From contig JAFKJB010000007.1 of assembly GCA_017306155.1 (NCBI GenBank), positions 109,016 through 173,015 of the forward strand: 64,000 bases of DNA, written 5' to 3'. This document shows positions 29,601-61,419 of this stretch, piece by piece (position 1 is the first letter of the stretch; each line of letters begins with the position of its first letter). Source of the DNA: Nitrosospira multiformis (GTDB taxonomy: Bacteria; Pseudomonadota; Gammaproteobacteria; Burkholderiales; Nitrosomonadaceae). The notes under the pieces are model-generated. The model was not told where the DNA came from. It did not search any database and saw only the letters and a list, made by a program, of their open reading frames with translations. A program made the translations under genes and the position numbers.

Positions 29601-32600
29601 CTGTCACTGTCAGGCTGCCGAGCGCGGAAAGCGGTTGTACCGGGTGCGTCGTACTGCTGCCGAACGCCACTGTCCGGTCCGGCGCCAGAATGCTGACCTG
29701 GCTATAAGTCGTGGGGGCGATCACGGCGCCGCTAAAAACCAGGTCGGCCGCACTTGAAAAGGTGCCCACCGGACGCGGTGAACCGCCGCTGCTTATACCC
29801 GAAAACCTTACTTCCTGAGAACCGGTGAACTCAGCACGTGACATCCCGCTGAGCGTCAGGTTGCCTGCCAGTTCCAGCAGTTGTGCCTCCGCCTTGAAAC
29901 CGCCGGCACCGGCAAGCGGCGTATTGACCGCATCCACGCGATTGGCATCGAAATTGCCAAGCCGCAAGGCTTCCGCTTTAAGCGCGGCTTCGCCTCCTGC
30001 CATTTCGATGCGTGGCGTGTCCAGCACCACTTCTTTCAAGGGCAGCGGTCGGCTGGCGCCGAGATTCAGACCATTTTCCAGCCGGATCGCATCCCGGCTT
30101 TTCAGGGCGATACGGTCAAACCCCGCTGCTTCGAGTGCCGCGGCGCCAATCGTGGCTTTCCCGTTGAGTCCAGCCGGAATGATGGAGCCGGGAGCCAGAC
30201 CTGCCGTCTGCGATGCTCCCGTCGGCCCCAGGCTCAATACGCGCTCTTCGAGCGGAAAACCTTTATTCTGGGCATCGTCCACATCCAGAAGTCCCAGAAC
30301 GACATCAAGCGCTCCCGCGCGATTCGACGTGCCACCCGGCTGCGCCGTAATGCTGCCCTCCAGCAGTATGCCTTCGCGCGCTATGACACTCAGTCTTCCT
30401 GCATCGCTGCCTACCCACTGCCCCAGGCCTCCGGCCTGGTTCTGGATATCCAGGCGGACGGGTGCGGCGCCGGCCAGATTGATATGAGAGCCGGACTCGG
30501 CCACGATATGCCCGAACTGGGCGTTCAGCATCACTGTCCCACCGCTCAGCACCTCCCCCTGGGTGAGGCGCTGACTGTCGAGGTACGTGAGAGCCTTGCC
30601 GGACACATCGAGTAACGCCTGCTTGCCCAGCCAGAGACTGTTGCTTGGATTGAAGTTGAAGCTGTGACTATGATCGAGCGTTGCCGTAATGCTGCCGCCG
30701 GGGGCGGTGATACGTCCTTGTATGTTCATCGAACGCGCTGCTGCCAGCGTGATTTGTGCTCTGGGATCCGCCTCGATATGCGCGCCCGCTCCGATCACCA
30801 CATCGGCTGCGCCCCGCTCGTCGGGATTTTCTGCTGTAAGACTCAAATTGGCTGACTCGCGCACGAGATCGTCGAGTTTGACCGGGCGCGTAAAATCTTC
30901 CATTCTGCTGCCGCTTGGCCTCAGGCTGTAGTCAGGCTGCAATTCGAGGCTGAGGACGGTGGGTTTGATTTTCACACCCTCGGATAACGTGACGCTCTCA
31001 TTTCCCGTCAGATTGATATCACCAAACCCGCCCCGCTCGAAAAACCCGGAATCGAGATTCACCGCGCCGGTGGTGCTGTCCGGCGTGCCGCCAATCTGGA
31101 TTCTATTGCTCGAAACCGAGAAAGTACCGCCTTTGCCAATCCCGTAACCGCGTACATTGTCAGCCAGACCGGAAACGGCATTGCCGGACAGGCTGATGTC
31201 GCCACCGTTACCGGCAATCACGCTGCCTCGGCTATCCACCTTGAGCCTGCCGCCTCCAGTGACATCCAGCAGCGTATTTTTCCCGAGAGCGAGATCATCA
31301 ACGGCCGAGAGGGCTATCCTGCCGCCGTTTACCAGGCCCACTTCGCCAGACCCTGCGGGCACTCCACGCAATTCGTTTACCCACGCACCGCGCGCGGATA
31401 ACTTGACTCCTTCCGCTACAGCAAGATTCAGCGGACCGGATGAACGCCCCGGAAGATCGTTTCTGTTTGCATGGAGCATGATTGAGCCGGCCGGGGCGTC
31501 AATGTCCGCTTCGACCTTTACTCCCTGCGCCGTGATATGCACGCTGCCGCCTTGCGGCACTCGCAAGGCCTCGCGCACCTCCGTTGCCTGGTTACTGAAA
31601 ATTTCCAGATTGGCAACTTTGTCCCTGCCTAGCAGGGCCGGGTTGAGGCGCAGTTTATTGACGAGATCGGATGACAGCGTGTCGCCGAATTTGAAACTTC
31701 CCGGCAACAAAGGTCCTTCGCTGCTCAGCACGGTCTGCTGGTTATGCTTGTAATCCAGGCCATTGATATTGTTCGCTATCGGATCGCTGCCAAGAATCAA
31801 CCGCGCGCCCTCCGGCATGATGCCCTTGTCGCGCTGCACCTCTCCCACGACCGTGCGTCCCTGCACATCCCCCTGCATGACCACCGCGCGCAGGCCCATG
31901 ACTTCCAGGGCACCCGCATTCTTGCCTTCGGTATAACCCGGGTCATAGTTGAAGGTCTGTCCGAGGTCGATCACTTCCTTCACGTTCCAGCGCCCGAAAT
32001 CCTGCACGTAACGGGTGGCAACGCCGTCGTAACGCACATCGGCGCGGGCATTCGCGATATCGGTCAATATTCCCCGGGACATGAGCAAGGTCGTTTTCAC
32101 GCTGGAAGGCGTGTAGCTCAAGCTGCCGCCGGATATATCGATCATCGCGCCGGGAGCGATGATGGCTTCCCCCTGAGAGTTCACGCGCACCACGCCGCCC
32201 TCCGTGGATCTTTCCGCCACCGTACGCTCAAGACGCGCCTGGTAGGCTTGCAGACTATCCTTCGCGATCAGTGTGGGAGTGCCGGAGTCGGCGCTGGCCA
32301 GTGCGCGGTTGATGTCCACATAAACTTTCTGGCTGCGCAGCGGGCCATCCCGGTTGACGGGAGAATCTTTCAGTTCGTCTCCGCGCAATTCCACTTCCAC
32401 CGCGTTTCGTGCCGCGGAAACCTTTACATTTTCCAGTCCGGCGACATTGATAAGAGCGCCGTTGTCAATGTGAATGCGGGCGGTATTGGAAGCAGGAGCA
32501 TCGAATGCCTGCCTGAACGGATCGCCGGGCTGAAAAAGCAAACTCGGGTTATCCAGCGCGAAAAAATCCACTTTGCCTGCGGGCGCGTTGATCACGGCCC

Positions 32601-33846
32601 CCCTTTCCATGCGCACGTCCTGTCCCAGCACTCTCACTTGGGAGGAGAGCACCAGGCCAGTACCGGTCACTCCATCCAGCACGCCGGCCTGATCGGATAC
32701 ATCCGGCAATACCTCCGTCAGGCTGCCGGCGCCGAGTGTTGCGCGGCCGCCGCGCATCGAGCTGTCCTGAGCCGTGGCGGCATCTTTCGCCAGCAGGTAT
32801 ACGGAGCCATTGGCAATCACCGAGGTGGTGGCGCGGGCGATCCCCTGCTGATTGACGGCATAACCCACCATGGTGATATTGCCGCGCGGCGTGCTCAATT
32901 CACCCAGATTGGTCACATGGCCGAGTTTGTCCAGTGCCGCATCCTTCAGTGCAACTGCCTTGCCATCGAGCTTGCCGTCTCTGATGTCCGTGTTTGGGGT
33001 CTCGAAATCACTCAGTCCCGCCGGACTGTCGACTTCGACCAGAAGTCCGCGCACATTGGCATCCACTGGCTCGGCCGAGGCGGAACGCAGGAATACCTTG
33101 GTGCCCGCGGCGGCAATCACCTGCCCATCGGGCGCTTCCACCGTGCCTTTATTGATCACTGTCGGTGCGATCAACATAATCCGTCCCTGACTGCCGGCCG
33201 TGATCCGCGCGCCTTCGAAAACCTTGATGAAACCGCCTGAACCTTCGAACTGCGGAACCGTCTTCTCGGTAGTGAGAAAGGCATTGAGGATGAAGTTGTC
33301 GTGGATATCCAGACTGCTGGCGGTAAAGCTGTTGAGATTTACTTGAGAGGAACCCATGAAGGCAATACCATTGGTATTGACTAAAATGACATTTGCATTC
33401 TGCCCGACGGCCTGGCTCAGGATGCCTGCGATCACGCTCGGATCGTTGTCCCAGACGCGGTTCAGTGTCGTAAAATTCGCACCCTGCACCAGGTTCTGCG
33501 CAGCAAGACTTTCCACCTGCTGGAACTGAACCGAATGACCGGGGCTGACATTGAAGCTTTCCCAGTTGAGGATGGCTTTATCCCCCACCTGGTTGACCAC
33601 TGCATCGGGGCCATGAACATGATAATTCGCCTGGCCGGCGCTGACGAAATCAGGAACGGCGCCGCCACAACTGCCTCCTGCACAGGGCACGGGCAGTTCC
33701 GCCTGTGCAGTTGTCGCCAGCAGCCCGGTCATGAGCAGAACCGTACCACTTTTAGCCTTGCCACTGCGGCGCCGCGTGGTTTCTGCAACGGGAATCAACA
33801 TACCCAGAGTCTTGTTGAAAATAAGCCGGTAGATATTCTGATTCAT
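23632..33846 (-). CDS. Giant TpsA-type filamentous haemagglutinin family adhesin
   Basis: The product is 3404 residues. It starts with an extended signal peptide (M-N-Q-N-I-Y-R-L-I-F-N-K-T-L-G-M), typical of very large two-partner secreted proteins. A TPS domain follows from about residue 55: P-D-F-V-S-A-G-Q-A-N-Y, I-L-N-W-E-S-F-N-V, and V-N-T-N-G-I-A-F as a variant of the usual NPNGI. The rest is beta-helix-type repeat sequence with many G-G-x-I/V-x-L and A-G-x-x-I-x-L units. It includes a region around residues 1510-1600 rich in L-P-G/L-P-A-G-x-Y motifs, as in DUF3739 haemagglutinin-family proteins. It would be secreted by the adjacent TpsB as a surface adhesin. AAGGAAT precedes the ATG. 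Confidence 0.93.
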   Translation of the reverse strand: MNQNIYRLIFNKTLGMLIPVAETTRRRSGKAKSGTVLLMTGLLATTAQAELPVPCAGGSCGGAVPDFVSAGQANYHVHGPDAVVNQVGDKAILNWESFNVSPGHSVQFQQVESLAAQNLVQGANFTTLNRVWDNDPSVIAGILSQAVGQNANVILVNTNGIAFMGSSQVNLNSFTASSLDIHDNFILNAFLTTEKTVPQFEGSGGFIKVFEGARITAGSQGRIMLIAPTVINKGTVEAPDGQVIAAAGTKVFLRSASAEPVDANVRGLLVEVDSPAGLSDFETPNTDIRDGKLDGKAVALKDAALDKLGHVTNLGELSTPRGNITMVGYAVNQQGIARATTSVIANGSVYLLAKDAATAQDSSMRGGRATLGAGSLTEVLPDVSDQAGVLDGVTGTGLVLSSQVRVLGQDVRMERGAVINAPAGKVDFFALDNPSLLFQPGDPFRQAFDAPASNTARIHIDNGALINVAGLENVKVSAARNAVEVELRGDELKDSPVNRDGPLRSQKVYVDINRALASADSGTPTLIAKDSLQAYQARLERTVAERSTEGGVVRVNSQGEAIIAPGAMIDISGGSLSYTPSSVKTTLLMSRGILTDIANARADVRYDGVATRYVQDFGRWNVKEVIDLGQTFNYDPGYTEGKNAGALEVMGLRAVVMQGDVQGRTVVGEVQRDKGIMPEGARLILGSDPIANNINGLDYKHNQQTVLSSEGPLLPGSFKFGDTLSSDLVNKLRLNPALLGRDKVANLEIFSNQATEVREALRVPQGGSVHITAQGVKVEADIDAPAGSIMLHANRNDLPGRSSGPLNLAVAEGVKLSARGAWVNELRGVPAGSGEVGLVNGGRIALSAVDDLALGKNTLLDVTGGGRLKVDSRGSVIAGNGGDISLSGNAVSGLADNVRGYGIGKGGTFSVSSNRIQIGGTPDSTTGAVNLDSGFFERGGFGDINLTGNESVTLSEGVKIKPTVLSLELQPDYSLRPSGSRMEDFTRPVKLDDLVRESANLSLTAENPDERGAADVVIGAGAHIEADPRAQITLAAARSMNIQGRITAPGGSITATLDHSHSFNFNPSNSLWLGKQALLDVSGKALTYLDSQRLTQGEVLSGGTVMLNAQFGHIVAESGSHINLAGAAPVRLDIQNQAGGLGQWVGSDAGRLSVIAREGILLEGSITAQPGGTSNRAGALDVVLGLLDVDDAQNKGFPLEERVLSLGPTGASQTAGLAPGSIIPAGLNGKATIGAAALEAAGFDRIALKSRDAIRLENGLNLGASRPLPLKEVVLDTPRIEMAGGEAALKAEALRLGNFDANRVDAVNTPLAGAGGFKAEAQLLELAGNLTLSGMSRAEFTGSQEVRFSGISSGGSPRPVGTFSSAADLVFSGAVIAPTTYSQVSILAPDRTVAFGSSTTHPVQPLSALGSLTVTAANIVQDGNIWAPFGQLTFSATDTLTFKDGSLTSVAGGSGALIPFGVLANGRSWLYKPDAFEIPQLALPEKSVRAQAANIDMQAGATVDLAGGGDLQAYEFSVGPGGSRDILGVAGTYAILPGYTSGFAPGDRQENTGFDRAPGDAVYLSGIPGLPAGVYTLLPAHYALLPGAYAIRLNTDAHNLLPGQAYSKQDGTQVVPGYVTDSRARDWVEAPRDAIWSGFEVLSREQVLQRSEITLTRASDFFTTSNSRPQDAGLLSMDTTANLKLDALFKLAAGTGGRGAAVDISAPRIAITSDTSSGTGGVDPLATRISASALNALGASSLLIGGTRSRGDTASDSTALVVGAEEVTLANDINHALKGDEVILAAKDSLILKSGSAIEAQGNASASGSYNTAGNGALVRAASAFAAFSRTGSPDRSQGTLIGEAGSVIRSGNSITLDATRQNTFAGTPVFADRGNNPVAGNLTIGAMRVNFGEAPAGSEGLTLGQSELDGLNSLNSLTLTSYSTFDLYGDVSVGGVNAQGKPTLQALNLLGAGLDGVNNNGKTATLHATSLLLSNPGAAAFTTSGTPGNGALAIQADTLILGEGAKSVEGFSQVAISANEIVGRGSGSADIAAAETKLDVARISGEQGASQALAAAGRLDATGKEADRAFADRDTLGAKWTLSGTEVMFDTEADLPSGQLKLAATTGNLELGANAVANVAGRSVAFFDVERASPGGIVELASEEGSVVVQPGAQVNVSAAPGGDAGKVIVRAGKGTAAIAAGSLLGSAMANGTGAGGKRGNGAGFDLDVAALPDFSTLNKTLNQGVFDGARTFRVRTGDVSLSASDTVRAREVHIAVDNGKLDLAGRIDVSGDDAGRIDLHARNDVNVLAGTKLDAYSTGNGKNGGEVEIGTAEGRLNLAEGSVIDVHGGHDGEGGKILLRAPRLGSGAGDEVALDNINSSISGAKSVVIEAVKIYDGVDALTASGTNGGSGGTLSLAAVNADNTSFASHAGTILSRLGKAGESSFHLRPGVEIRSTGDLTLANDWNLGASRPAGEPGMLTLRAAGDLKLNSNLSDGFNAATPFSGGITPAALLAGDSWGYRLVGGADIDAADPMAVKADGGDVALAAGKLVRTGTGDIHIAAGGDIKLADGKSAIYTAGRIADAVDGFAIPANAQFSQDGGNVSLAALRNIVGIPSAQLYSNWLFRQGRLNDSTGAYTLQPAWWVRFDQFQQGVGALGGGDVTLTAGGNIENVSASAPTQARMAAMGPDAARLLKTGGGDVQVEAGADLLGGQYYADRGGLDLKAGGKVDSGQNVNGSPLYTILAVGDAQAKVQAREDVNIQTVLNPHLVVQSSGNSTAFNVRNVTSPTWSLFSTYSPRSGASLQSLHGNVALQNGGGAGASMQNAYRTSLNFNISSGSYKPALLSLLPPSLSITAFRSNIALSAVDDIVLSPATGGQLTLLAANSINIPTVVSMSDRDPALIPGAVRPGRESSQFPNTAVSAADLDLLHAAVPVHRGDTQPARVYAVAGDVKGNPFELSLDLSKAFWLRAGQDVRDVGILAQHANPSDVSRVTAGRDIAFTAGNDRAGLAKIWVGGLGRLEVTAGRNIDLATSAGIVSRGDLDNAELPAGGVDIDVAAGVGAKGIDYTGALDRLIADLEKTEGSPNDILLWQARWLVGNNDLDGADALQAVREVRALDADTQRIMVREMVYSALRTTGRDFNNPNSAYAGNYERGYATLERLFPGLREKNEDGSFKNYQGEINLFASRIKTERGGNIEFMVPGGGVVVGLSNTPEVLVNTGNDVLGMLTVAKGNVRGFARDHILVNQSRILTVGGGDVLLWSSEGDIDAGKGKKTATAVPPPLIKVDAQGNVTQELQGAASGSGIGALSSGGVRAGDIDLIAPRGTVNAGDAGIRANNLNIAAQVVLGADNIAVAGTSTGTPVADASAVTATTSGATQQGDDVSKATAALSQNLSEAARTSDEMKKLRPTFISTEVIGHGE

Positions 33847-49623: not shown

Positions 49624-50088
49624 GGACTTCCACAGCCAAGTGTAAGCATCTTACATGACAAAACTATTACTAAGAACGAGCAAGGAGAGCTAGAAAAGGC
49701 TGATTGATTAGCGGATAAAACCGCGCGAATCATATTAGCTTCCCCGTAATTCCGCAAGTCCATTGTGGGAAATAACATCATTCCCTTTGATGTCACGTAA
49801 AGTATTTTCGAAGATATTTATTTCAGCAGACCGCCTGAGATATTCCTCCCGCAGATCCGAGCCGCCACTCCTTCATTGCCGGCGAAATCGGCGGACTTCA
49901 AGCGCTTCCGCTTCCACGCCATGCTATTCTTAAACATATCCAGGTAACTAAAAGGGGGAAGAAACAGGATGCCAGGGGCGATACCCCCGCTTGCGCCACA
50001 GGAAAAGCTGTATTATCCTTCGCGCGCCGGCAGGCGCTCTACCCCATTTCAAGCGTTTGGCATCTATTGCGCTCATTTCCATTTATCC
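49624..50088. other. Divergent promoter region between gspG and the response regulator
   Basis: About 465 bases with no gene recognised, expected to hold divergent promoters for the secretion operon and the response regulator. The frame at 49969-50088 is open in phase with the regulator and has GGGGGAAG before an ATG at 49969, so part of it may be coding (see the regulator). Confidence 0.5.
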
Positions 50089-50808
50089 ATGTCGATACGA
50101 GTTCTGCTAGCTGTCAATCACCCGATCGTTCTTTGGGGATTGGAAAAATTCATAAACGAGTCTCCGCAAATACAGGTTGTCGGCAAGGCAACGAATGGCG
50201 CGGAAGCACTCCATCTGGCCAGAGAGCAACAACCCCACATCCTTCTGCTCGATCCATCTCTAGGCAGGGAAAACGGAGTGGATCTCATCCCCGGACTGCT
50301 GGCTGAAGGGAATTTTCACATCATCATCTTTACGGAGATTCGCGATCGGACCGCTGTTGATACAGCCGTGCTCAACGGAGCACGGGGAGTGGTCTATAAA
50401 GAGGAACCTGTCGAAACCATTCTCAAAGCTATCGAGAAGGTTCACAAGGGGGAACTATGGCTGGATCGAAGCACTACCGGTCGTGTCTTTATCAGCTTAT
50501 TGCGCTCCGGTAAAAACACCGCGTGCCCCATAACAGACAAAATTACCACTCTCACGCCGAAGGAGCGGGCCATTGTCAACGTCTTTGCGGAGGAAGCAGG
50601 TGCGTCAAACAAGAAGATCGCCCGAACCCTGTGCATCAGCGAACAGACCCTGAGAAACCACCTTACGTCCATCTTCAGCAAACTCGACATTACCAACCGT
50701 TTCGACCTCTTCATGTTTGCAAAGCTTCATCGGCAGCAAATCGGCCCACCTCTGAATCCCTTAAGTCAATCCGTCCGTCAATCCACCCCTTTCAAGAGCA
50801 GTTTGTAG
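50089..50808 (+). CDS. NarL/FixJ-type response regulator with degenerate acidic pocket
   Basis: The 239-residue product has a receiver domain (1-120) and a LuxR helix-turn-helix (about 150-210, L-T-P-K-E-R-A-I-V-N-V-F-A, then S-N-K-K-I-A-R-T-L-C-I-S-E-Q-T-L-R-N-H). The phosphoacceptor Asp55 (I-L-L-L-D-P-S), the Thr of I-I-I-F-T and the Lys of V-V-Y-K are present. The usual Asp-Asp pair near residue 9 is V-N (L-A-V-N-H-P), so magnesium binding and phosphorylation may be weak. This start matches the family. An ATG at 49969 with a strong Shine-Dalgarno would add 40 residues of no family likeness. No sensor kinase is adjacent. Confidence 0.85.
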   Translation: MSIRVLLAVNHPIVLWGLEKFINESPQIQVVGKATNGAEALHLAREQQPHILLLDPSLGRENGVDLIPGLLAEGNFHIIIFTEIRDRTAVDTAVLNGARGVVYKEEPVETILKAIEKVHKGELWLDRSTTGRVFISLLRSGKNTACPITDKITTLTPKERAIVNVFAEEAGASNKKIARTLCISEQTLRNHLTSIFSKLDITNRFDLFMFAKLHRQQIGPPLNPLSQSVRQSTPFKSSL

Positions 50809-51367: not shown

Positions 51368-52396
51368 ATGAAGTATCAACATAGCGATGCTATGAGGAAT
51401 TTCTTTGCTTCCGATCCCCTCCGGCATTCCTCAATTGCTTTTTCCTGCAAGCGTTTTTGCGGTGGCCTGGCTCTTCCGTCCGTGCTCTGTCTGACTCTGC
51501 TTTCTTTACCCGCGGAAGAAAGCGCTGCGGCTGAGCATCGGATTGAAATGACCGCAGAGCAACTCGAAGATGGTGTACTGGCGTATCGCATGGTTGCACA
51601 CCAGGTAGACAAGGTAAATATTACTTCCCGTTACAGCAAGCAGGCGACAGTGCCCGGGCCCACGATCGTCCTGACTGAAGGTGACAAGGTCAGGCTGACT
51701 ATACGCAACGGCATCAGCATGAGCTCAGACCAGCAGATCAGCGTCCATGTGCACGGAGTTCACTACAACATCCTGAGCGACGGCTCGCTCAAGATCATCA
51801 ACAAGATCGACAACGAAGGCGCCTATCCCGACTATGGCGGCCACTTCTATACCTATATCTGGGATGTTGCCCCTGGCACTGCCGGCACCTGGCCTTATCA
51901 TGACCATAACTTCGAAACCCACAACGGCGCGGAAGACAGGGGGCTTTATGGTGCTGTCATCGTCAATCCGGCATCGGGCACGGTAACGGCCAGTAACGGC
52001 AGCAGCATCTCAAGCATACCGGTTGCAGGCATCAAAAAAGATTATGTGCTCTATCTGAGCGACGATGCGTTCTGGGGGATGGAAATTGACGGCGCCACCC
52101 GGCAGCAGACCCCGCTCGGCGCAAATCCCCTGCTCAGCGCAAACAGCGGCGACAACGTCAGGTTTCACCTGATCGCGATGGGCACCTATCTGAACCGATT
52201 CCAGCTGGAAGGCTATCAATGGGTGGAGCCGGGTACGGCCAGGCTGATCAGTTCGAAAGATATCGGTCCTCTCGAAAACCACGCATTCACGATCAAGGCA
52301 TTGGGCAGTGCCAATTACATGAATGCAAACTTCTCACGCAAATTGATGGGTATGAAGGGCAGTTTCGTCGTCACCAGCAATGCAACCTCCCAGTGA
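51368..52396 (+). CDS. Multicopper oxidase half A: cupredoxin pair with copper motifs 1 and 2 only
   Basis: The 342-residue product is exported (hydrophobic core G-L-A-L-P-S-V-L-C-L-T-L-L-S-L, cleavage near A-A-A). The first cupredoxin domain carries H127-V-H129-G and W-P-Y-H178-D-H180-N-F, motifs 1 and 2 that hold half of a multicopper oxidase trinuclear centre. The second cupredoxin domain is intact in fold, but motif 3 reads T-Y-L-N-R-F-Q-L-E-G-Y-Q-W and motif 4 reads N-Y-M-N-A-N-F-S-R-K-L-M-G-M, with no His or Cys. It therefore cannot form a complete site alone. The gene 29 bases downstream has the opposite motif content. The ATG at 51368 has GAGGAAC upstream; the open frame before it looks non-coding. 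Confidence 0.88.
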   Translation: MKYQHSDAMRNFFASDPLRHSSIAFSCKRFCGGLALPSVLCLTLLSLPAEESAAAEHRIEMTAEQLEDGVLAYRMVAHQVDKVNITSRYSKQATVPGPTIVLTEGDKVRLTIRNGISMSSDQQISVHVHGVHYNILSDGSLKIINKIDNEGAYPDYGGHFYTYIWDVAPGTAGTWPYHDHNFETHNGAEDRGLYGAVIVNPASGTVTASNGSSISSIPVAGIKKDYVLYLSDDAFWGMEIDGATRQQTPLGANPLLSANSGDNVRFHLIAMGTYLNRFQLEGYQWVEPGTARLISSKDIGPLENHAFTIKALGSANYMNANFSRKLMGMKGSFVVTSNATSQ

Positions 52397-52425
52397 ACCG
52401 GTAAAGATAAAAAGGAAAAAATTAA

Positions 52426-55215
52426 ATGAACAAAACTATTCTTGGGCTGAAGGCAGCATCGGTGGCGGCGGCGCTTGCGCTGCTTGCAGCCTCGCTGCTG
52501 GCTTCGCAGGCAGCGCTCGCTGCGGTCCATGACATTTCGTTGACTGCCGAGATATTACCCAATGGCCAGTATGGTTACAAAAGGGGAGATAAGGCGGTAA
52601 TTCCAGGACCCACCCTCTTCGTGAAACAAGGCGATACTGTCAATATCACGGTTACCAACAACACCGACAAACCTGCCGGTTTCAAAGTGCCCGGTCTTTC
52701 AACCGCCACCGCCGCACAGGCAGCGCCGAATGGCGGAACGCTGAGCTACACGTTCACCGCCACCAGAACCGGAGCCTATCCATATTACGGAGAAGGGCAG
52801 CAGCTTCTCGGGCTGTTTGGCGCTGTAGTTGTGGATAGCGCGGATGGCAAGGCGGAAAGCTTCGTGGATGGCGGCGGTGCCGTCAAATCGGTTCGCACCA
52901 CGGATCTCTCCAAGCAATTCGTCCTGTTCATGGTGGGATCGACTTTCTGGGCCACCGAGATATCCAAAACGGGGATGGAGACTCCCTTGTGGACCAATCC
53001 CACTCTTGGCGCTGTCGAGAACGAGATTGTCCGGTTCCACGTCCTGTCGGTGGGGCCGGGCCATACTTTCCACCTGCATGCGCACCGCTGGCTCGAGCAA
53101 GGAACAACCAGCGTGATCGACACGAGATTAATGGCGGACGTGGCTGACAGCCATACCTTCACCGTCAAGGCAGGTACCGGTGTCGGGGCTGGCGACTGGC
53201 AGTACCACTGCCATCTGTTCTCACACATGGAAGCCGGCATGCATGGCAGTTTCAAGGTTTACTCCACCAATGATCCGAACAGGGGAACAGGTAACAGTAT
53301 TGCCGGAGCTTCTCCCTACGGGGCCATTTTCGGGAATACGAGCAACGATCCTGGCCTGGTTACTTTCGTAATCTCCGACGAACCGGGCATGTGGTTCAGG
53401 AGCGCGCGCAGCGAAACCATTTTCGGCGTTACCGGCAGCACCCGCTCTCTGGAAGTGATTCCTCCCGGCAGCAGCGTCAACTTCATCATGGCGGACACCA
53501 ACACGGTGCACAGCATGACCAGCCTGCTATGGCCCAGTGGCGCGGGAAACCCGTCGAATGGACACCACTCCAATAACGGCAACGGTAAAAGCAGGGGACG
53601 CGGCACTGCCCATACCGAACACGCATCCATGCCGTTTGACCAGACCCGGGCATACAAGGGCGGCGGCATCGTCAAACTGACGACACCTGGTCTGTATGTA
53701 TTCACCTGCAAAGTGCATCCCTATATGTTTGGCGCGGTAATCGTCGATGACCCGGATACCCAGGGGCTTGACCTGGGCGACACCATCAATCTGGCGACAG
53801 GCATCGTGAATCTTCCCACCAGCAGCGATCTGGCTACCCGATTGCTGAGAACCTTCTTCATTGCCACGGCACCCAACAACTGGCAGAAATTTAATTCTCC
53901 CACGCCCTGGAAGATAACTTATCCCGGCGTTCCCGTCCGGATTACCGGTGGGGCTGTTGCCAACCTGGCGGAGGTCCTGACAGCCAGATACGGCAACGAT
54001 GTGGCGTTGACGCCCCAGTTTTCGCCCGCTGTTCCCGGTGTGGGGGAAGTATGGGTGGATACCCAGTTCGAAAAAACTGCCGGCAAGACCAAGCCCGGCA
54101 CTATTACCGTTGTGGATACGAGCAACTGGAAAGTGTCGCGCAAGATCGCCCTGCCGCAGATCAATATGAACAATCCGCACAACATGTGGACCAACAGGGA
54201 TCAGTCGGTCGTTTATCAAACCCAATGGTTTGACAACAAATTAACCCTGATCAACCAGAAAACGGGGGCGCTGATCAAAAATATCCGCGTAGGCGAAGCT
54301 CCGGCTCACGTGATGACCCGTCCCGACAACGACGACATCACCGTGACCAATAATGGCGAAGACGGAATTTCTCTCATCCCGGCAGGAACGACGGAAGTCA
54401 GCCAGATGCTGCCTACGCAAAAATCCGGACAGCAGGCAACCAATCCGCATGGGCACTGGATCAGCGCGGATGGCACCCAGGTGGTCACGCCCAACATCTT
54501 TACCAGTGATGTAGGTTTCTATGATCTCAACAGCGGGGCTATTCTGGAAAGAACTCCTACCGGGGAAAACGCTCCGGGCGCCCATCCCATTGCCATTGCA
54601 ATGATGCCTGATTCCAGCAAATACTATGCCGCCAACCTCCTGCATCACAGTGTGAGCGTGCTCGACGGAAACGGGACATTGAAGAAAACGATCGATCTCA
54701 TCGCAGACTATAACCCCATTGACGGAACCATACAGGATCGTGACGGAGATGGTCAGGCAACTGTGGGCATACTCCCCATCCAGTTGCCCGTCTCTCCGGA
54801 TGGCCGTTCGGTAGTGGTTGCAAATATGGGTGAATCCATCATTGTCATCGATACGATGACTGATCGGGTCGTCAAAATGCTGCCCTGTGACGCGGGTTGC
54901 CATGGGGCGAATTTTGGCGCCAAGAAAGGCGGGGGATATTATGCCTATGTCACCAGCAAGTTCTCCAATGAGCTTATCGTGGTGGACACCGATCCCAACA
55001 ATGATGGAAACCTGTCAGATGCAATGATAGCGGGACGCGTTTCCCTGGTGGGCGATTCCAGCGTTTCCGCCGATGACCGGATCAGCAGCCTGGCGGGTTA
55101 CGGCGGCCAGGGAGTGCTTGCTATTCCCAATGTATACAATAGCTGGGTCAAGAACCTTCCCGGGGAATGGAAGGAACAGTTGACCGCGGCGCAGCAGGAC
55201 CCCTCTCTGCGCTAA
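52426..55215 (+). CDS. Multicopper oxidase half B: cupredoxins with motifs 3 and 4, extra blue-copper domain and YVTN propeller
   Basis: The 929-residue product has a signal peptide ending A-L-A-A. Cupredoxin domain 1 (35-135) lacks His at motifs 1 and 2 (F-K-V-P-G-L and Y-P-Y-Y-G-E-G). Domain 2 (to about 285) carries motif 3, H213-T-F-H216-L-H218-A-H220, and motif 4, H261-C262-H263-L-F-S-H267-M-E-A-G-M272, including a type 1 copper set. A third cupredoxin has H362, C428, H431 and M434 in plastocyanin spacing. From about residue 545 comes a YVTN-type beta propeller (I-T-V-V-D-T-S-N-W-K-V-S) with P-C821-D-A-G-C825-H826 near its end. AAGGAAAAAA precedes the ATG. It is co-transcribed with half A and closed by a terminator. 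Confidence 0.9.
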   Translation: MNKTILGLKAASVAAALALLAASLLASQAALAAVHDISLTAEILPNGQYGYKRGDKAVIPGPTLFVKQGDTVNITVTNNTDKPAGFKVPGLSTATAAQAAPNGGTLSYTFTATRTGAYPYYGEGQQLLGLFGAVVVDSADGKAESFVDGGGAVKSVRTTDLSKQFVLFMVGSTFWATEISKTGMETPLWTNPTLGAVENEIVRFHVLSVGPGHTFHLHAHRWLEQGTTSVIDTRLMADVADSHTFTVKAGTGVGAGDWQYHCHLFSHMEAGMHGSFKVYSTNDPNRGTGNSIAGASPYGAIFGNTSNDPGLVTFVISDEPGMWFRSARSETIFGVTGSTRSLEVIPPGSSVNFIMADTNTVHSMTSLLWPSGAGNPSNGHHSNNGNGKSRGRGTAHTEHASMPFDQTRAYKGGGIVKLTTPGLYVFTCKVHPYMFGAVIVDDPDTQGLDLGDTINLATGIVNLPTSSDLATRLLRTFFIATAPNNWQKFNSPTPWKITYPGVPVRITGGAVANLAEVLTARYGNDVALTPQFSPAVPGVGEVWVDTQFEKTAGKTKPGTITVVDTSNWKVSRKIALPQINMNNPHNMWTNRDQSVVYQTQWFDNKLTLINQKTGALIKNIRVGEAPAHVMTRPDNDDITVTNNGEDGISLIPAGTTEVSQMLPTQKSGQQATNPHGHWISADGTQVVTPNIFTSDVGFYDLNSGAILERTPTGENAPGAHPIAIAMMPDSSKYYAANLLHHSVSVLDGNGTLKKTIDLIADYNPIDGTIQDRDGDGQATVGILPIQLPVSPDGRSVVVANMGESIIVIDTMTDRVVKMLPCDAGCHGANFGAKKGGGYYAYVTSKFSNELIVVDTDPNNDGNLSDAMIAGRVSLVGDSSVSADDRISSLAGYGGQGVLAIPNVYNSWVKNLPGEWKEQLTAAQQDPSLR

Positions 55216-55327: not shown

Positions 55328-55370
55328 TTGAATTCAGAACAATCGTTCTCTATAATAAGAACAACTGTTC
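55328..55370 (+). promoter_or_regulatory. Sigma-70 promoter with two LexA-type boxes (GAAC-N4-GTTC)
   Basis: TTGAAT at 55328-55333 and TATAAT at 55351-55356 are spaced 17 bases, a strong promoter. One box, GAACAATCGTTC, at 55337-55348 lies between the two elements. A second, GAACAACTGTTC, at 55359-55370 covers the expected transcription start. Box centres are 22 bases apart, about two helical turns, so two dimers could bind one face. This is a self-regulating SOS promoter for the operon that follows. Confidence 0.88.
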
Positions 55371-55387
55371 TCAATTTCACCCTGGTC

Positions 55388-56020
55388 ATGCAACCGCTCG
55401 ACATTTCTTCTTACCTTGGCAGGCTTCAGGATTACTATGCCAGGGAAAGAATCATTCCCTCCACCACTCAGTTATCCACGCTATGGAATGTAAAGGCGCG
55501 CTCCTGGACGCATCAGATCGTTCAGCGTTTAAAGGAGGAAAATTTTCTTGAAAATGCGCCTGGCAGCCGTCTTCGCCCCGGGCCCCGCTTTTTCGAACGG
55601 ACGCTGGGGCCGGGGGTTCGAGCGGGAAGACCTCAGCAGGCTGCCGATGTTCAGCCTGAACTGTTGCGCATAGACGACTACCTGATCGAAAAACCTTCCC
55701 AGACCATTCTGTTTCCGGTCAAAGGCGATTCCATGACTGATCTGGGAATACTCGAAGGCGACATGGTGGTCATTGAACGCAGCGATTCGGCTTCGCCTGG
55801 AGAGGTGGTATTGGCGATTGTGGATAACGAACTCACGCTCAAGGTCCTCGCCAGGGATAAGGAGGGCTACTACCTGGAAGCCCGCAACGAGGCGCGAAGC
55901 AAGGAATATCCGCCTATCCGCCCCCGTCATAAACTGGAAATCTACGGATTTTATGTCGGTCTGTTCCGGAAAACCCAGGTTCCGGGACATCGCCTCCATC
56001 GCCCCGGTTTCGGCCGGTGA
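55388..56020 (+). CDS. lexA2: LexA-family SOS repressor of the imuAB-dnaE2 operon
   Basis: The 210-residue product has an N-terminal winged-helix region (I-P-S-T-T-Q-L-S-T-L-W-N-V-K-A-R-S-W-T-H-Q-I-V-Q-R-L) and a C-terminal S24 domain. The S24 domain has the serine-lysine dyad, S115 in K-G-D-S-M-T-D and K152 in L-T-L-K-V-L. It would cleave itself when RecA is active and so release the operon. No obvious Ala-Gly bond precedes the dyad, so the cleavage site may differ. The start is the ATG at 55388; the earlier TTG at 55328 is the -35 element. It is the first gene of lexA2-imuA-imuB-dnaE2, with imuA 21 bases after its stop. Confidence 0.9.
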   Translation: MQPLDISSYLGRLQDYYARERIIPSTTQLSTLWNVKARSWTHQIVQRLKEENFLENAPGSRLRPGPRFFERTLGPGVRAGRPQQAADVQPELLRIDDYLIEKPSQTILFPVKGDSMTDLGILEGDMVVIERSDSASPGEVVLAIVDNELTLKVLARDKEGYYLEARNEARSKEYPPIRPRHKLEIYGFYVGLFRKTQVPGHRLHRPGFGR

Positions 56021-56041
56021 ATCAATGGAACGTGTATTTCC

Positions 56042-56764
56042 ATGCCTGCTTCTCCGCCTTCAATGCCCCCGGCGCCCCTGTCGCTCTCGCAAATTGAAGC
56101 CCGTTTCAAGAGCAGGATATGGCGAGGAAATGCATGGGGCGCCTCCGATGATCCCGTCATTTCCAGTGGCTTTCAGGAGCTGGATAAGGAACTGCCCGGA
56201 GGGGGCTGGCCTACCCGCAACCTGATGGAACTGCTGTTATCAGCAGAGGGGCTGGGGGAAATAAGGCTGTTGAGTCGCGCTCTGGGGGAAATTACCCGAA
56301 GCGAAAGAAACATTCTGCTGGTTGCGCCACCTTATATTCCCTACATGCATGCCTGGGAGCATCAGGGAATCGATAGTCACCGTGTCGTGCTGGTCAGGGC
56401 TTGCAAGCCTGCCGAGCGATTATGGGCGCTTGAGCAGGGCATCAGGAGTGCCGCCTTTGGGGCCATTATCGGTTGGCTGCCGGAAGCAAGTCAGCAAGCA
56501 ACGCGAAAGCTGCAAATTCTTTCCCGGACTGCGGCAGGCCTCGTTTTCCTGTTCAGGCCGGCGAGAGCACAATTCGAATCCTCCGCAGCCCCGCTGAGGA
56601 TACTGCTCAATCCCGTGCGAGGGCATTCCCACACGCTTTCCTTGTATCTGTTGAAACGCCGCGGCGCTCCATTCGTCCTGCCTGTTCGCATCCCCCCGCC
56701 TCAAGCCGCCATCTTTTCCCGCCCCGCTGAATTAAAGCCCGTCCTCGCTCCTCTCACTAACTGA
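56042..56764 (+). CDS. imuA: ImuA, translesion synthesis accessory protein
   Basis: The 240-residue product is RecA-like in fold. It carries S-S-G-F-Q-E-L-D-K-E-L-P-G-G-G-W-P near residue 40, L-M-E-L-L, and I-L-L-V-A-P-P-Y-I-P-Y-M-H-A-W near 95, the ImuA/SulA-type signature. It lacks a full Walker A lysine motif at the loop. ImuA links RecA to ImuB during damage-induced mutagenesis. It follows lexA2 by 21 bases and precedes imuB by 3, within one SOS-controlled operon. Confidence 0.92.
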   Translation: MPASPPSMPPAPLSLSQIEARFKSRIWRGNAWGASDDPVISSGFQELDKELPGGGWPTRNLMELLLSAEGLGEIRLLSRALGEITRSERNILLVAPPYIPYMHAWEHQGIDSHRVVLVRACKPAERLWALEQGIRSAAFGAIIGWLPEASQQATRKLQILSRTAAGLVFLFRPARAQFESSAAPLRILLNPVRGHSHTLSLYLLKRRGAPFVLPVRIPPPQAAIFSRPAELKPVLAPLTN

Positions 56765-56767
56765 ATC

Positions 56768-58288
56768 ATGCTGTGGATTGCCCTTTACTTTCCGGCATTA
56801 TCGCTTGACTGGATTGAACGCCGGTTTCCGAAGATGCTCATTCCCGCAATTGCCGTGACTGTCCGCAAAAGGAACCAGACCTCTATTCAACAAGCCAATA
56901 AGCCGGCGCAGGAGCGGGGGGTCATGGCCGGTCAGCCTCTGGCCAGTGCTTTGGCTGTTTTCCCGGATCTGGTGATCATGGAACAGGACCCGCATGAAGA
57001 AAGAAAAGCCTTGCAGCAAGCCGTATATGCTGCATTACGCTTTACGCCCAATATAGCAATGCAGAACAACGGCCTGATTGCCGAAGTCTCCGGAAGCCTG
57101 AAATTGTTTGGTGGCCTGAAAAAGCTCTGCCAGTCACTCAACCGGGCAGTGACTGCGCAAGGTTTGCAGTTCAGCGCCGGGATTGCGCCCACGGCAACGG
57201 GAGCAGGGCTGCTGGCGCGTTCCGCCCAGCCGGGCACTGTCATCAATGGAAAGGGTGAGGAATTCCGGATATTGCTCGACGCTCTGCCTGTCAATCTGCT
57301 GGAATCGGCCCAGCTTCATCTTGATGTCATTCGCGGCATCGGCTGTAAAACACTGGCTGATTTACGACGATTGCCTCGCGGCGGGATAGCGCGCCGATTT
57401 GACCCGGACCTGCCAGCAGAGCTCGACCGTGCCTACGGCGACTCGCCCGATCCGCAAAAGTGGTTCGAGGCGCCGGAAGATTTTCAGCAAAAAATGAAAA
57501 TGATGGGGCTGGTTGAAAATACCGCATTGCTGCTGGTTCCCGCACGACGAATGGTCGAACAGATGTGCGGCTGGCTGGCTTCGCGTCATGCGGCGGTATC
57601 GGCCTTTTCATTCATTCTGCATCACGAGCATTCCTTGCGGCAACCCCATAAATTCACCCCGGTAAACATACGCCTTTCCGAGCAAGGCAGCGACCCGGCT
57701 CATTTAATGCTGTTGCTGCGTGCACGCCTGGAACGTACAAAAATAGTGGCGCCGGTGTGTGAACTGGAATTGACGGCAGATGAAATAGCGGCGGGAGCAG
57801 ACAGCAATCTGGAATTGTTCCCCACCGTGCAATCCGAGGCCACTTCGCTCAATCGCTTCATCGAGAAACTTTCTTCCCGCCTGGGACCGGAAGCCATCAC
57901 CGGTTTAAAGGTTGTTTCCGATCATCGTCCCGAATGCAGCCAAAGATTGGAACTTTCAGCGATGGGCGGCTTGAATCGCTTTTCGAAGCGAGAGGCAAAG
58001 GCGCAAATCATCCAGCCGGAATCGCCCCGTCCAGCCTGGCTGATGGAAACTCCGCTGGAACTGAAAGTGCAACGTGGCCAACCGATATATGGTTCACCGC
58101 TGAAACTGCTTGCAGGACCCGAGCGAATCGAAGCCGGCTGGTGGGATGATGCCGCAGTTGCGCGGGATTATTTCATTGCGGAGAACGACCAGGGCCAGTT
58201 GTTATGGATTTACCGCGAACGCAACCCGGTGGAAAAAGATAAGGGGAACAAAGGCGGAAACTGGTATCTGCAAGGGCTGTTTGGATAG
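56768..58288 (+). CDS. imuB: ImuB, inactive Y-family polymerase-like protein
   Basis: The 506-residue product follows the Y-family fold: M-L-W-I-A-L-Y-F-P-A-L-S-L-D-W at the start, E-V-S-G-S-L-K-L-F-G-G near residue 106, G-I-A-P-T-A-T-G-A-G-L-L-A near 138, and a helix-hairpin-helix region near 185 (G-I-G-C-K-T-L-A-D-L). Active-site acidic residues seen in true polymerases are missing, as is usual for ImuB. It bridges DnaE2 to the beta clamp. The dnaE2 ATG begins 6 bases after its stop. Confidence 0.93.
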   Translation: MLWIALYFPALSLDWIERRFPKMLIPAIAVTVRKRNQTSIQQANKPAQERGVMAGQPLASALAVFPDLVIMEQDPHEERKALQQAVYAALRFTPNIAMQNNGLIAEVSGSLKLFGGLKKLCQSLNRAVTAQGLQFSAGIAPTATGAGLLARSAQPGTVINGKGEEFRILLDALPVNLLESAQLHLDVIRGIGCKTLADLRRLPRGGIARRFDPDLPAELDRAYGDSPDPQKWFEAPEDFQQKMKMMGLVENTALLLVPARRMVEQMCGWLASRHAAVSAFSFILHHEHSLRQPHKFTPVNIRLSEQGSDPAHLMLLLRARLERTKIVAPVCELELTADEIAAGADSNLELFPTVQSEATSLNRFIEKLSSRLGPEAITGLKVVSDHRPECSQRLELSAMGGLNRFSKREAKAQIIQPESPRPAWLMETPLELKVQRGQPIYGSPLKLLAGPERIEAGWWDDAAVARDYFIAENDQGQLLWIYRERNPVEKDKGNKGGNWYLQGLFG

Positions 58289-58293
58289 CTTCC

Positions 58294-61200
58294 ATGCACT
58301 CTTCCGCTCCGGATTACGCTGAGCTACATTGCTGTTCCAGCTTCAGCTTCCTCAAAGGCGCTTCCATGCCGGAAGAGCTGGTCGAACGTGCCGCGGACTT
58401 GGGTTACAGCGCCCTCGCCATTACGGACGGATGCTCCGTGGCAGGAGTGGTAAGAGCGCATGCGGAAGCCAGAAAAACGGCGCTGCATCTTCTGATCGGC
58501 AGCGAATTCATGCTGGAGGATGGGCTGCGGCTGGTGTGTCTCGCCATGAACCGGGAAGGCTACGGCAATCTGTGCGAACTGATCACGCTGGCCAGGCAGC
58601 GCAGTGCGAAAGGAGCCTACCGCATTACCCGCGCGGACTTTGAAAGCTGCACGGATGCGCCTCATCTTGCCCGCTTGCCCGATTGCCTGGTGCTGCTGAT
58701 TCCCTGCAGGGATCAAGTGGAGAGTTCCTTGACTGAGGATATGCGCTGGACGCAGTCCCTGTTTCCCGGCCGCTGCTGGACTGCTGTCGAACGGCTGCTT
58801 CATGCCGGGGAAGAGGTGCTGTTTGAGAGAATACGGCAGGCGGCTGAAACCATGGGCATGCCGCTGGTGGCGGCAGGCGATGTGCATATGCACGATCCTG
58901 CCCACAAGCCCTTGCAGGATACGATGACCGCAATTCGGCTGGGCCGCCCGCTGGCGGAATGCGGTTATGCGTTGCAGCCTAATGCGGAACAGCATCTGCG
59001 CACCCGATCGGAACTGGCGCAACTCTATCCATCGGAACTCCTGCAGGAAACCGTTTCCATTGCCGCGCGCTGCACCTTTTCGCTGGATGAACTGCGCTAT
59101 GAATATCCCGATGAATTAACCGGAACTAATGAAACTTATACCGGCTATCTGCGGCGCATGGTCGAAAATGGCATGAGGTGGCGTTTTCCCAAAGGCGCCT
59201 CAATCAAGATAAGAAAGCAGATCGAGCATGAATTGAAGCTGATTGCCGATCTCAAGTATGAACCTTATTTCCTGACGGTATTCGATATCGTAAGCTTTGC
59301 CCGGTCGCAAGGAATTTTGTGCCAGGGGCGCGGATCAGCGGCAAATTCCGCGGTCTGCTATTGCCTGGGCATTACCGAGATCGATCCGGAGCGCAGCAAT
59401 CTGCTGTTCGAACGCTTTATTTCCAGGGAACGCAACGAACCTCCCGACATCGATGTCGATTTCGAGCACCAGCGTCGCGAGGAAGTCATTCGGTACATCT
59501 ACCAGAGATATGGCCGTGATCGGGCCGCCATTGCCGCAACAGTCGTCACTTATCGTACCCGCTCGGCAGTTCAGGATGTGGGCAAAGCGCTGGGGCTCGA
59601 TATCGAGCGTATCAGACGCCTATCCACCTCCCTTGCCTGGTGGGATAAAGGTTCGGATATCAATAAGCGCCTGAGCGAGAACGGCTTCGATCCCGGCAGC
59701 CCGGTAATCCGCAAGCTGATTCTGCTGACCACCCTCCTGTATGGCTATCCGCGCCATCTGTCCCAGCACGTGGGCGGGTTTGTGCTGACACGCGACAAAC
59801 TCTGCCGCATCGTTCCCATCGAAAATGCCGCCATGCCGGATCGCCGCATCATCCAATGGGATAAGGACGACCTGGCGGAGGTGGGATTGATGAAAGTCGA
59901 CGTGCTCGCGCTCGGAATGCTATCGGCAATACACCGCGCGCTTGATCTGATTTCGAACCGTCGCGGTGTGCCATTCCAGATGCAGGATATACCTCCGGAA
60001 GACGAAAAGACGTACGACATGATCTGCAGGGCGGACACGATTGGCGTCTTCCAGATCGAATCCCGTGCGCAGATGTCCATGCTGCCGCGCCTGAAGCCGC
60101 GAGTTTTCTACGATCTGGTAGTGGAAGTCGCCATCGTCCGTCCCGGTCCGATTCAGGGCGACATGGTGCATCCTTATCTGCGCCGCAGGCAGGGACTGGA
60201 AAAGGTCGATTATCCGGGCGGTGAAGTGGAAGCTGCATTGGGGCGGACTTATGGCGTCCCAATCTTCCAGGAACAGGTGATGCAGGTGGCCATGCTTGCC
60301 GCCGGTTTCTCTTCGGGCGAAGCAGACCAGTTAAGACGTTCCATGGCTGCCTGGAAAAGAAAAGGAGGCCTGGGTCCCTTCCATGAGAAGCTGATCGATG
60401 GGATGACAAGCCGGGGTTATTCAAAAGAGTTTGCCGAGCGCATCTTCCGGCAGATCGAAGGCTTTGGCGAATACGGGTTTCCGGAATCCCACGCTGCAAG
60501 CTTTGCATTGCTGGTATATGTCTCCGCCTGGCTCAAATGCCATGAGCCCGCCGCTTTCCTTTGCGCCATGCTGAACAGCCTGCCCATGGGCTTCTATAGC
60601 GCATCACAACTGATCCAGGATGCCAGGCGACATGAGGTTGTCATTAACCCGGTAGACATCACTGCCAGCAACTGGGAGTGCATGCTGGAGGAACAGAAGG
60701 ATAAAGCGCTTCAACCGATTGTCCGGCTGGGCTTGAACCGGGTGAAAGGGATGGGACTGGAAACCGCCACCCGCATTGCTGAAGCAAGAGAAATCGCACC
60801 TTTTGAAGACCCCGACGACCTCGCAAACCGCGCCTCCTTGAATACCATTGAAATACGTGCGCTTGCCAGTGCAGATGCCTTGCGAACCTTGTCGGGTCAT
60901 CGGCGCCAGACGCTGTGGACTGTCGCATCCCACATAAGACAGCGGGACCTGATGCGGCATGCTCCGGTGAAGGAAACCTTGCCATCCATCCCCGCCGCGG
61001 CGGGGGAAAAGGAAATCGCAGCCGATTACGCCAGCACCGGGCTTACCCTGCGCAGACACCCCCTGGCGCTGCTGCGGCCGAAGCTGGCAAGAATGAATCT
61101 GCGCTCGGCAATGGAGCTATCTGATTACCCTACCGGGCAGCTGGTCCGGACCACCGGCATCGTGACCTGCCGACAACGCCCTGGCACCGCCAGCGGCGTC

Positions 61201-61419
61201 ATGTTCGTCACGCTCGAAGACGAAACCGGGATAACGAATGTGGTGCTGTGGAACCGGATCATCCTGAAGCACCGCCGCGAAGTCTTGAACTCAAAGCTCC
61301 TGACAGTGTATGGCGTATGGCAGTCCGAAAGCGGCGTCAAACACCTTATCGCCAAACGGCTGGTAGATCACAGCCATCTGCTGGGCAATCTCGCAGTGGA
61401 AAGCAGGGATTTTCATTAG
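58294..61419 (+). CDS. dnaE2: Error-prone DNA polymerase DnaE2
   Basis: The product is 1041 residues, a normal DnaE2 length. An N-terminal PHP domain (Y-A-E-L-H-C-C-S-S-F-S-F-L-K-G-A-S) leads to the polymerase core, with the catalytic R-N-E-P-P-D-I-D-V-D-F-E-H near 385 and G-R-G-S-A-A-N-S-A-V-C-Y near 345. Downstream are Q-H-V-G-G-F-V-L-T near 490, F-G-E-Y-G-F-P-E-S-H-A-A-S-F-A near 725, and an OB-like C-terminus (R-Q-R-P-G-T-A-S-G-V-M-F-V-T-L-E-D-E-T-G). It replaces the normal alpha subunit at lesions and is mutagenic. It is the last gene of the SOS operon. Confidence 0.95.
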   Translation: MHSSAPDYAELHCCSSFSFLKGASMPEELVERAADLGYSALAITDGCSVAGVVRAHAEARKTALHLLIGSEFMLEDGLRLVCLAMNREGYGNLCELITLARQRSAKGAYRITRADFESCTDAPHLARLPDCLVLLIPCRDQVESSLTEDMRWTQSLFPGRCWTAVERLLHAGEEVLFERIRQAAETMGMPLVAAGDVHMHDPAHKPLQDTMTAIRLGRPLAECGYALQPNAEQHLRTRSELAQLYPSELLQETVSIAARCTFSLDELRYEYPDELTGTNETYTGYLRRMVENGMRWRFPKGASIKIRKQIEHELKLIADLKYEPYFLTVFDIVSFARSQGILCQGRGSAANSAVCYCLGITEIDPERSNLLFERFISRERNEPPDIDVDFEHQRREEVIRYIYQRYGRDRAAIAATVVTYRTRSAVQDVGKALGLDIERIRRLSTSLAWWDKGSDINKRLSENGFDPGSPVIRKLILLTTLLYGYPRHLSQHVGGFVLTRDKLCRIVPIENAAMPDRRIIQWDKDDLAEVGLMKVDVLALGMLSAIHRALDLISNRRGVPFQMQDIPPEDEKTYDMICRADTIGVFQIESRAQMSMLPRLKPRVFYDLVVEVAIVRPGPIQGDMVHPYLRRRQGLEKVDYPGGEVEAALGRTYGVPIFQEQVMQVAMLAAGFSSGEADQLRRSMAAWKRKGGLGPFHEKLIDGMTSRGYSKEFAERIFRQIEGFGEYGFPESHAASFALLVYVSAWLKCHEPAAFLCAMLNSLPMGFYSASQLIQDARRHEVVINPVDITASNWECMLEEQKDKALQPIVRLGLNRVKGMGLETATRIAEAREIAPFEDPDDLANRASLNTIEIRALASADALRTLSGHRRQTLWTVASHIRQRDLMRHAPVKETLPSIPAAAGEKEIAADYASTGLTLRRHPLALLRPKLARMNLRSAMELSDYPTGQLVRTTGIVTCRQRPGTASGVMFVTLEDETGITNVVLWNRIILKHRREVLNSKLLTVYGVWQSESGVKHLIAKRLVDHSHLLGNLAVESRDFH

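Follow-up and report, generated by a model that had tools for sequence, protein, structure and literature searches.

The genes A and B encode complementary halves of the copper motifs of a multicopper oxidase

We analyzed a stretch of 64,000 nucleotides from Nitrosospira multiformis (assembly GCA_017306155.1, contig JAFKJB010000007.1, positions 109,016 to 173,015 of the forward strand; hereafter the window), in which two neighboring genes, here called A and B, encode proteins related to two-domain multicopper oxidases (MCOs). The two genes lie on the plus strand, 29 bases apart, and the N-terminus of each product suggests an export signal (Table 1). An original prediction, made from the window alone, held that each protein carries only half of the copper-binding motifs of an oxidase. 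Translation confirmed HVHG and HDH (motifs 1 and 2) in A, as well as HTFHLHAH and HCHLFSHMEAGM (motifs 3 and 4) in B. We take motif 3 of B to supply one type 1 His and two His of the trinuclear cluster, and motif 4 to supply the Cys, His and Met of the type 1 site together with two further trinuclear His. At the positions of the missing motifs, A reads NRFQLEGY (motif 3) and MNANFSRKLMGM (motif 4), while B reads KVPG (motif 1) and YYG (motif 2) and has, as predicted, no His at either. The companion statement that the second domain of A has no His at all had to be narrowed, as H267 and H305 are present there (in 67/73 and 70/73 of the pairs described below), neither of them at a copper-ligand position. 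The blue-copper domain and the propeller expected in B were both seen, the former by its ligand set and the latter in a seven-bladed model.

Table 1. Features of the A-B locus and of the gene upstream of it. Positions are those of the window; pair counts refer to the 73 distinct complete pairs.
Feature	Position	Strand	Length or conservation
Gene A, two-domain (small-laccase type) MCO chain with motifs 1 and 2 only	51368..52396	+	342 aa
A motif 1, HVHG, residues 127-130, two trinuclear-cluster His	51746..51757	+	73/73 pairs
A motif 2, HDH, residues 178-180, two trinuclear-cluster His	51899..51907	+	73/73 pairs
A domain 2, about residues 206-338, trinuclear His of motifs 3-4 and type 1 Cys replaced	51983..52381	+	
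Gene B, two-domain MCO part (motifs 3-4 only), blue-copper domain and 7-bladed propeller	52426..55215	+	929 aa
B domain 1, about residues 33-140, lacking motif 1 and a complete motif 2	52522..52845	+	
B motif 3, HTFHLHAH, residues 213-220	53062..53085	+	73/73 pairs
B motif 4, HCHLFSHMEAGM, residues 261-272	53206..53241	+	73/73 pairs
B third cupredoxin domain, amicyanin-like spacing H362, C428-x2-H431-x2-M434	53347..53760	+	
B 7-bladed YVTN propeller	54040..55173	+	
LuxR-type response regulator, upstream of A	49969..50808	+	

Pfam assigns Cu-oxidase_3 to A, and Cu-oxidase_3, Cu-oxidase_2 and Lactonase to B. Using HMMER, we found that two-domain laccases are the nearest relatives of known structure for A and for the first ~280 residues of B, and that the copper motifs fall into register with theirs: HVHG and HDH of A align with the ligands of laccase domain 1, and HTFHLH and HCH...H...M of B with those of domain 2. 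Homology to the small laccase SLAC over two cupredoxin domains is thus found by sequence for both proteins and by fold for A. Neither chain singly has the four copper motifs of such an enzyme; A and B jointly do, supplying between them the eight trinuclear His and the single type 1 set found in an MCO.

The same complementary set is kept in bacteria and archaea

We collected 77 distinct adjacent A-B pairs, including that of the window. Four of them, in which A is shorter than 300 aa (206, 228, 188 and 146 aa), at least partly due to contig ends, were excluded, leaving 73 complete pairs, 58 from Nitrosomonadaceae and 15 from Nitrososphaerales archaea. All four ligands of A and all eight of B are invariant in these 73 pairs, motif 3 or 4 occurs in 0/73 A proteins, and a complete motif 1 or 2 in 0/73 B proteins. 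The adjacent pairs with the same loss that the original prediction proposed to look for in other genomes therefore exist, and since all 73 complete ones keep the same complementary set, the division reflects neither chance nor sequencing error. Each chain has lost half its ligands, which could also be read as two paralogs degenerating toward pseudogenes; the retention of one ligand set in 73/73 complete pairs, across bacteria and archaea, speaks against such decay, to which we give almost no weight. Some remnants of the lost halves are visible. The motif 3 and 4 positions of A hold no Cys and no trinuclear His, and its first motif 3 His, at a type 1 position, is kept in 64/73 pairs, the window's not being among them; its last motif 4 Met is kept in 73/74 rows. 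In B, a lone motif 2 His occurs in 32/73 pairs, again not in the window.

The division holds in each sample from which the pairs were drawn. In the window's own family, B had matches in 88 of the 125 genomes scanned, many via the cupredoxin-propeller part alone, and we obtained 52 A and 52 B proteins from the window and 50 further B regions. Motif 1 was found in 51/52 A (the exception being the 188-aa fragment) and motif 2 in 52/52, with motif 3 or 4 in none and only the first motif 3 His left in 44/52; motifs 3 and 4 were found in 52/52 B, and a complete motif 1 or 2 in none. By pattern, bacterial A proteins carry motifs 1 and 2 in 59/60 cases (the same 188-aa fragment excepted) and motif 3 or 4 in 0/60, and bacterial B proteins carry motifs 3 and 4 only (62/62). 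Among the 16 archaeal A proteins, the strict pattern overlooked 11, of which 10 are complete and one is a fragment. Their flanking letters differ, and alignment was used there instead; it shows HxHG and HDH without motifs 3 and 4 in 15/15 complete archaeal A, and motifs 3 and 4 without motifs 1 and 2 in 17/17 archaeal B. A loose pattern gave three apparent exceptions: an H-x2-H-x-H in A, which is A's own motif 2, and an H-x-H in two B proteins, located in their N-terminal leaders. The original prediction would have yielded to a homologous pair with all four motifs in one chain; none was found among the 52 pairs of the family, the archaeal pairs or the 73 distinct complete pairs.

The two genes also travel together. 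A lies directly upstream of B, on the same strand, for 84 of 86 B genes, a count that includes some genes fetched twice and in which 83 cases were scripted and one (L071) was added, its 62-base overlap having just missed the cut-off. The two B genes without an upstream A are one that begins at a contig end and one lone B. Distances among A and among B proteins are correlated (r = 0.94; 1653 comparisons, 58 bacterial pairs). The whole pair stands in tandem copies in some Nitrosomonas (L058, L152, L167). No third MCO copy adjoining the pair was found among the matching open reading frames of the fetched stretches.

An unsplit form occurs in methanotroph-type genomes

A scan of genome contigs with the cupredoxin-propeller alignment returned 205 relatives, of which we took the best 80. 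These come from methanotrophs, Nitrosomonas, Nitrosospira, Nitrospira and Nitrososphaerales archaea, as well as from a few Acidobacteria, Rokubacteria and Chloracidobacterium assemblies; some assemblies labeled only Gammaproteobacteria or Methyloversatilis carry methanotroph-type genes. Three layouts were found among these loci. In the first, at methanotroph-type loci, an intact four-motif MCO, here called M, is followed by a separate cupredoxin-propeller gene; all four motifs are present in 18/18 distinct M proteins of methanotroph-type genomes, and two such loci (L130, L131) start at a contig end with no MCO visible. The second is A followed by B, in Nitrosomonadaceae and, within the best 80, in two Nitrososphaerales. 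In the third, in Nitrospira, others and Nitrosomonas paralogs, the cupredoxin-propeller gene stands alone with no MCO match in the stretch. The stand-alone genes of ~610 aa (L095-L104, L134-L151 and others) are found in Nitrosomonas and Nitrospira, in one ammonia-oxidizing archaeon and in a few further assemblies; in L102 and L103, two of them stand in tandem. Two Methylocystis rosea strains (L013, L014) carry the intact MCO-propeller pair on plasmids that are typed as mobilizable, where its neighbors are a sigma factor and a YncE-family gene.

A has matches in 13/70 genomes of the family of one pair-bearing archaeon. Among 398 sampled Pseudomonadota genomes, only two gave a match, that of the window and a second Nitrosomonadaceae genome (limits 1e-30, 1e-20). 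A scan with A for viral carriers found no relative. Copper monooxygenase matches were obtained in 21 of 25 genomes tested (15 with PF02461, 2 more with PF12942 and 4 more with PF04896), a sample that is biased in that all but the window's genome were reached via the best 80 loci and many are metagenome fragments; one assembly each from Acidobacteria, Rokubacteria, Chloracidobacterium and Nitrososphaerales gave no match, so that the link to copper monooxygenases is not strict. In the window's genome (3.0 Mb), PF02461 was not matched and the AmoC matches are pieces, at least one of them at a contig start; such fragmentation of AmoC may explain the missing match.

In a tree of 92 rows, rooted on two Streptomyces laccases, A (support 100/98), B (99/95) and the intact M (100/99) each form a clade, and archaea and Nitrosomonadaceae separate within the A clade and within the B clade alike. 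The same groups are recovered once 171 motif-flanking columns are removed (A 87/78, B 97/78, archaeal B 73/24, M 100/100), indicating that the clades are not made by the shared losses alone. As M and the small laccases have four motifs, the ancestor most likely had all four. On this tree, the opposite losses in the two copies would predate the parting of the bacterial and archaeal forms, and transfer between bacteria and archaea is implied. The proposal that a duplicated two-domain oxidase lost opposite halves fits these data, in that the tree is compatible with one duplication and the unsplit, ancestor-like layout is present in methanotroph-type genomes. In B, conservation is also higher for domain 2, which holds its ligands, than for domain 1 (bacteria, 0.70 vs 0.57; archaea, 0.71 vs 0.47), the corresponding values for intact M being 0.82 vs 0.78.

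The added domains of B

The third domain of B has the amicyanin-like ligand set, His followed by Cys-x2-His-x2-Met, and with no motif filter applied these ligands are nearly invariant (H362 in 149/149, C428 and H431 in 150/150, M434 in 148/150), the two rows in which Val replaces Met being of the methanotroph type (L127, L130). In the propeller, H585, H628, H675, H677 and H826 are near-invariant and H720 less so. These His, together with two Cys, are kept in the split, intact and stand-alone forms and lie mostly near the starts of inner strands, and they possibly form a hub metal site comparable to those of copper propellers. The NCBIfam profile for L-NosZ (clade III) was not matched, with 37.4 bits for B and 62.7 for the Methylocystis propeller protein against a cut-off of 700. 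Heme attachment at C821-x3-C-H826 was considered and seems unlikely, as the motif also occurs in archaea that are said to lack canonical c-type cytochromes. The joining in B of genes that are separate neighbors in methanotrophs suggests that the added domains may provide an electron-entry route.

A probable trinuclear site shared between A and B

Since the motifs are divided, a trinuclear site, if formed at all, must lie between chains. We consider it probable that A and B are two obligate subunits of one copper oxidase and share such a site. The ancestor would have been a homo-oligomeric two-domain MCO with its trinuclear site at the contact of one chain's domain 1 with domain 2 of the neighboring chain. 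This MCO would have been duplicated beside a cupredoxin-propeller gene, and one copy fused to that gene to give B. Opposite halves of the site would then have been lost, A keeping the domain-1 ligands and B the domain-2 ligands with the type 1 copper, such that a working trinuclear site could form only where domain 1 of A meets domain 2 of B. Electrons would enter through B, via the propeller and/or the blue-copper domain 3, reach the type 1 copper in domain 2 of B and go on to reduce O2 at the shared site. The physical complex, its copper loading, the electron path and O2 as acceptor are inferred. A three-membered ring built of two chain types allows at most one such A-to-B contact, and a single trinuclear site per trimer, the number that ceruloplasmin has, would be the simplest stoichiometry.

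The AlphaFold model of A (mean predicted local distance difference test score, pLDDT, 73.7) has as its top fold match the small laccase 4m3h (E-value 1.1e-18, TM-score 0.56 by query). That of B (mean pLDDT 74.7) is largely confident in the propeller and in domain 3, apart from the loop 376-400, and low in domains 1-2, probably spoiled there by mixed alignment rows; the fold comparison of B effectively covered the propeller only.

Several observations weigh against a shared site, or against parts of its proposed history. In the models, stretches 128-156 and 176-185 of A and nearly all of 116-272 of B have pLDDT below 50, so that the copper-motif loops of A are of low confidence. The correlated distances of A and B are expected of any co-inherited neighbors. 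The two domains of A differ little in their conservation (bacteria, 0.62 vs 0.59; archaea, 0.552 vs 0.555), which indicates that its domain 2 is not simply relaxed and is still constrained, perhaps for assembly. One archaeal B (L230:3067-6213) has no adjoining A, and its motif 3 is changed to HTFHTH; the genome from which it comes (G869) has two further A-B pairs. Clade support for A, B and archaeal B is weaker without the motif columns, and the placement of M beside A, on which the order of the duplication and the methanotroph split depends, is weak (81/40). Finally, the window's genome encodes, on contig C17, a complete two-domain MCO that could in principle serve one half-site.

This last observation invites the view that each chain is completed by an MCO encoded elsewhere, such as the C17 protein, and not by its neighbor. 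A and B are adjacent, co-inherited and of one family, and the C17 protein is distant from them (34 percent over 108 aa), which makes this view very unlikely. More weight, if still little, is due to the possibility that A and B associate without forming a trinuclear site, with B acting through its type 1 and blue-copper domains, or through the propeller, as an electron-transfer or catalytic protein and the HxH of A binding a lone copper in a chaperone or structural role. Nitrite reductases do have single-copper sites between chains, and the motif loops of A are modeled poorly; yet His 216, 218, 261 and 263 of B and the four of A are invariant in 73/73 pairs, and there is little reason otherwise to keep eight. 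The four trinuclear-only His of B, in particular, would be needless for mere electron transfer, and their retention favors a trinuclear site. We thus regard the absence of such a site as unlikely, and retain the shared A-B site as the better account. Beyond it, a more speculative and, in our judgment, doubtful extension is that a copper at the hub of B's propeller oxidizes either a metal ion or a small nitrogen compound, with electrons passing via the two blue-copper sites to a trinuclear site found only in A-B. The complex, common to bacterial and archaeal ammonia oxidizers, would then be an unrecognized oxidase of nitrogen or copper metabolism in organisms that have copper membrane monooxygenases.

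Genes around the pair

Relatives of the LuxR-type gene upstream of A are found in 38 of 64 Nitrosomonadaceae stretches examined, as well as in the window, and its product possibly regulates A and B. Its receiver reads LLAVNHP at a position where receiver domains usually have an acidic pair, and the regulator may thus act independently of phosphorylation. Downstream, positions 55328-61419 hold an S24 peptidase (LexA-like), a gene without Pfam match that we take, by its position, to be ImuA-like, an IMS-family gene and a DNA polymerase III alpha gene, which together look like a mutagenesis cassette. Farther away, on the minus strand (23632-33846), lies a gene for a 3404-aa filamentous haemagglutinin-like protein with a TPS secretion domain and an extended signal peptide.

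Comparison with known systems

The original prediction knew of no described system with this layout, and we found none in searches of an open-licence library that covers few subscription journals and not bioRxiv; nor did we find there a paper on the methanotroph pair of MCO and beta-propeller genes. SLAC (PDB 4m3h, 3cg8, 8aip) is the best sequence match of A and of the first two domains of B, as well as the best fold match of A, and has in common with them the two-domain fold and the set of four motifs. Each chain of the homo-oligomeric SLAC carries all four, and the trinuclear site lies between chains, whereas in A and B the motifs are split over two distinct chains and B has two more domains. 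The methanotroph pair (Methylocystis, Methylocaldum, Methylomicrobium and others) has homologs of both parts in the same order, but its MCO is intact in one chain and its propeller protein separate. MnxG is a weak PDB match of B (E-value 2.2e-5); MnxEFG is a multi-subunit MCO complex, in which the full MCO site lies in MnxG alone and no MCO half-site is found in the partners. The copper propellers nitrous oxide reductase, L-NosZ and thiocyanate dehydrogenase are also among the closest known systems.

The role of archaeal MCO1 and MCO4 is described as unclear (PMC7785015, PMC11849493), archaeal MCOs have been proposed as hydroxylamine dehydrogenase analogues (PMC13003922), and the roles of MCOs in ammonia oxidizers, above all archaea, are called unclear (PMC7785015, PMC13003922). 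If our proposal is true, ammonia oxidizers would possess a copper oxidase that has yet to be characterized, one in which complementary loss after duplication has halved a metal active site and turned a homo-oligomer into an obligate hetero-oligomer. The unsplit form surviving in methanotroph-type genomes allows comparison, so that "duplication, degeneration, complementation" becomes testable in one enzyme. The nearest evolutionary precedent that we found is the loss of sites within single-chain six-domain proteins such as ceruloplasmin, in which a two-domain unit is repeated and all trinuclear sites but one are lost, the survivor lying between repeats (PMC3600357). There, all domains belong to one polypeptide; in A-B, they are divided between two gene products, one of which carries a propeller.

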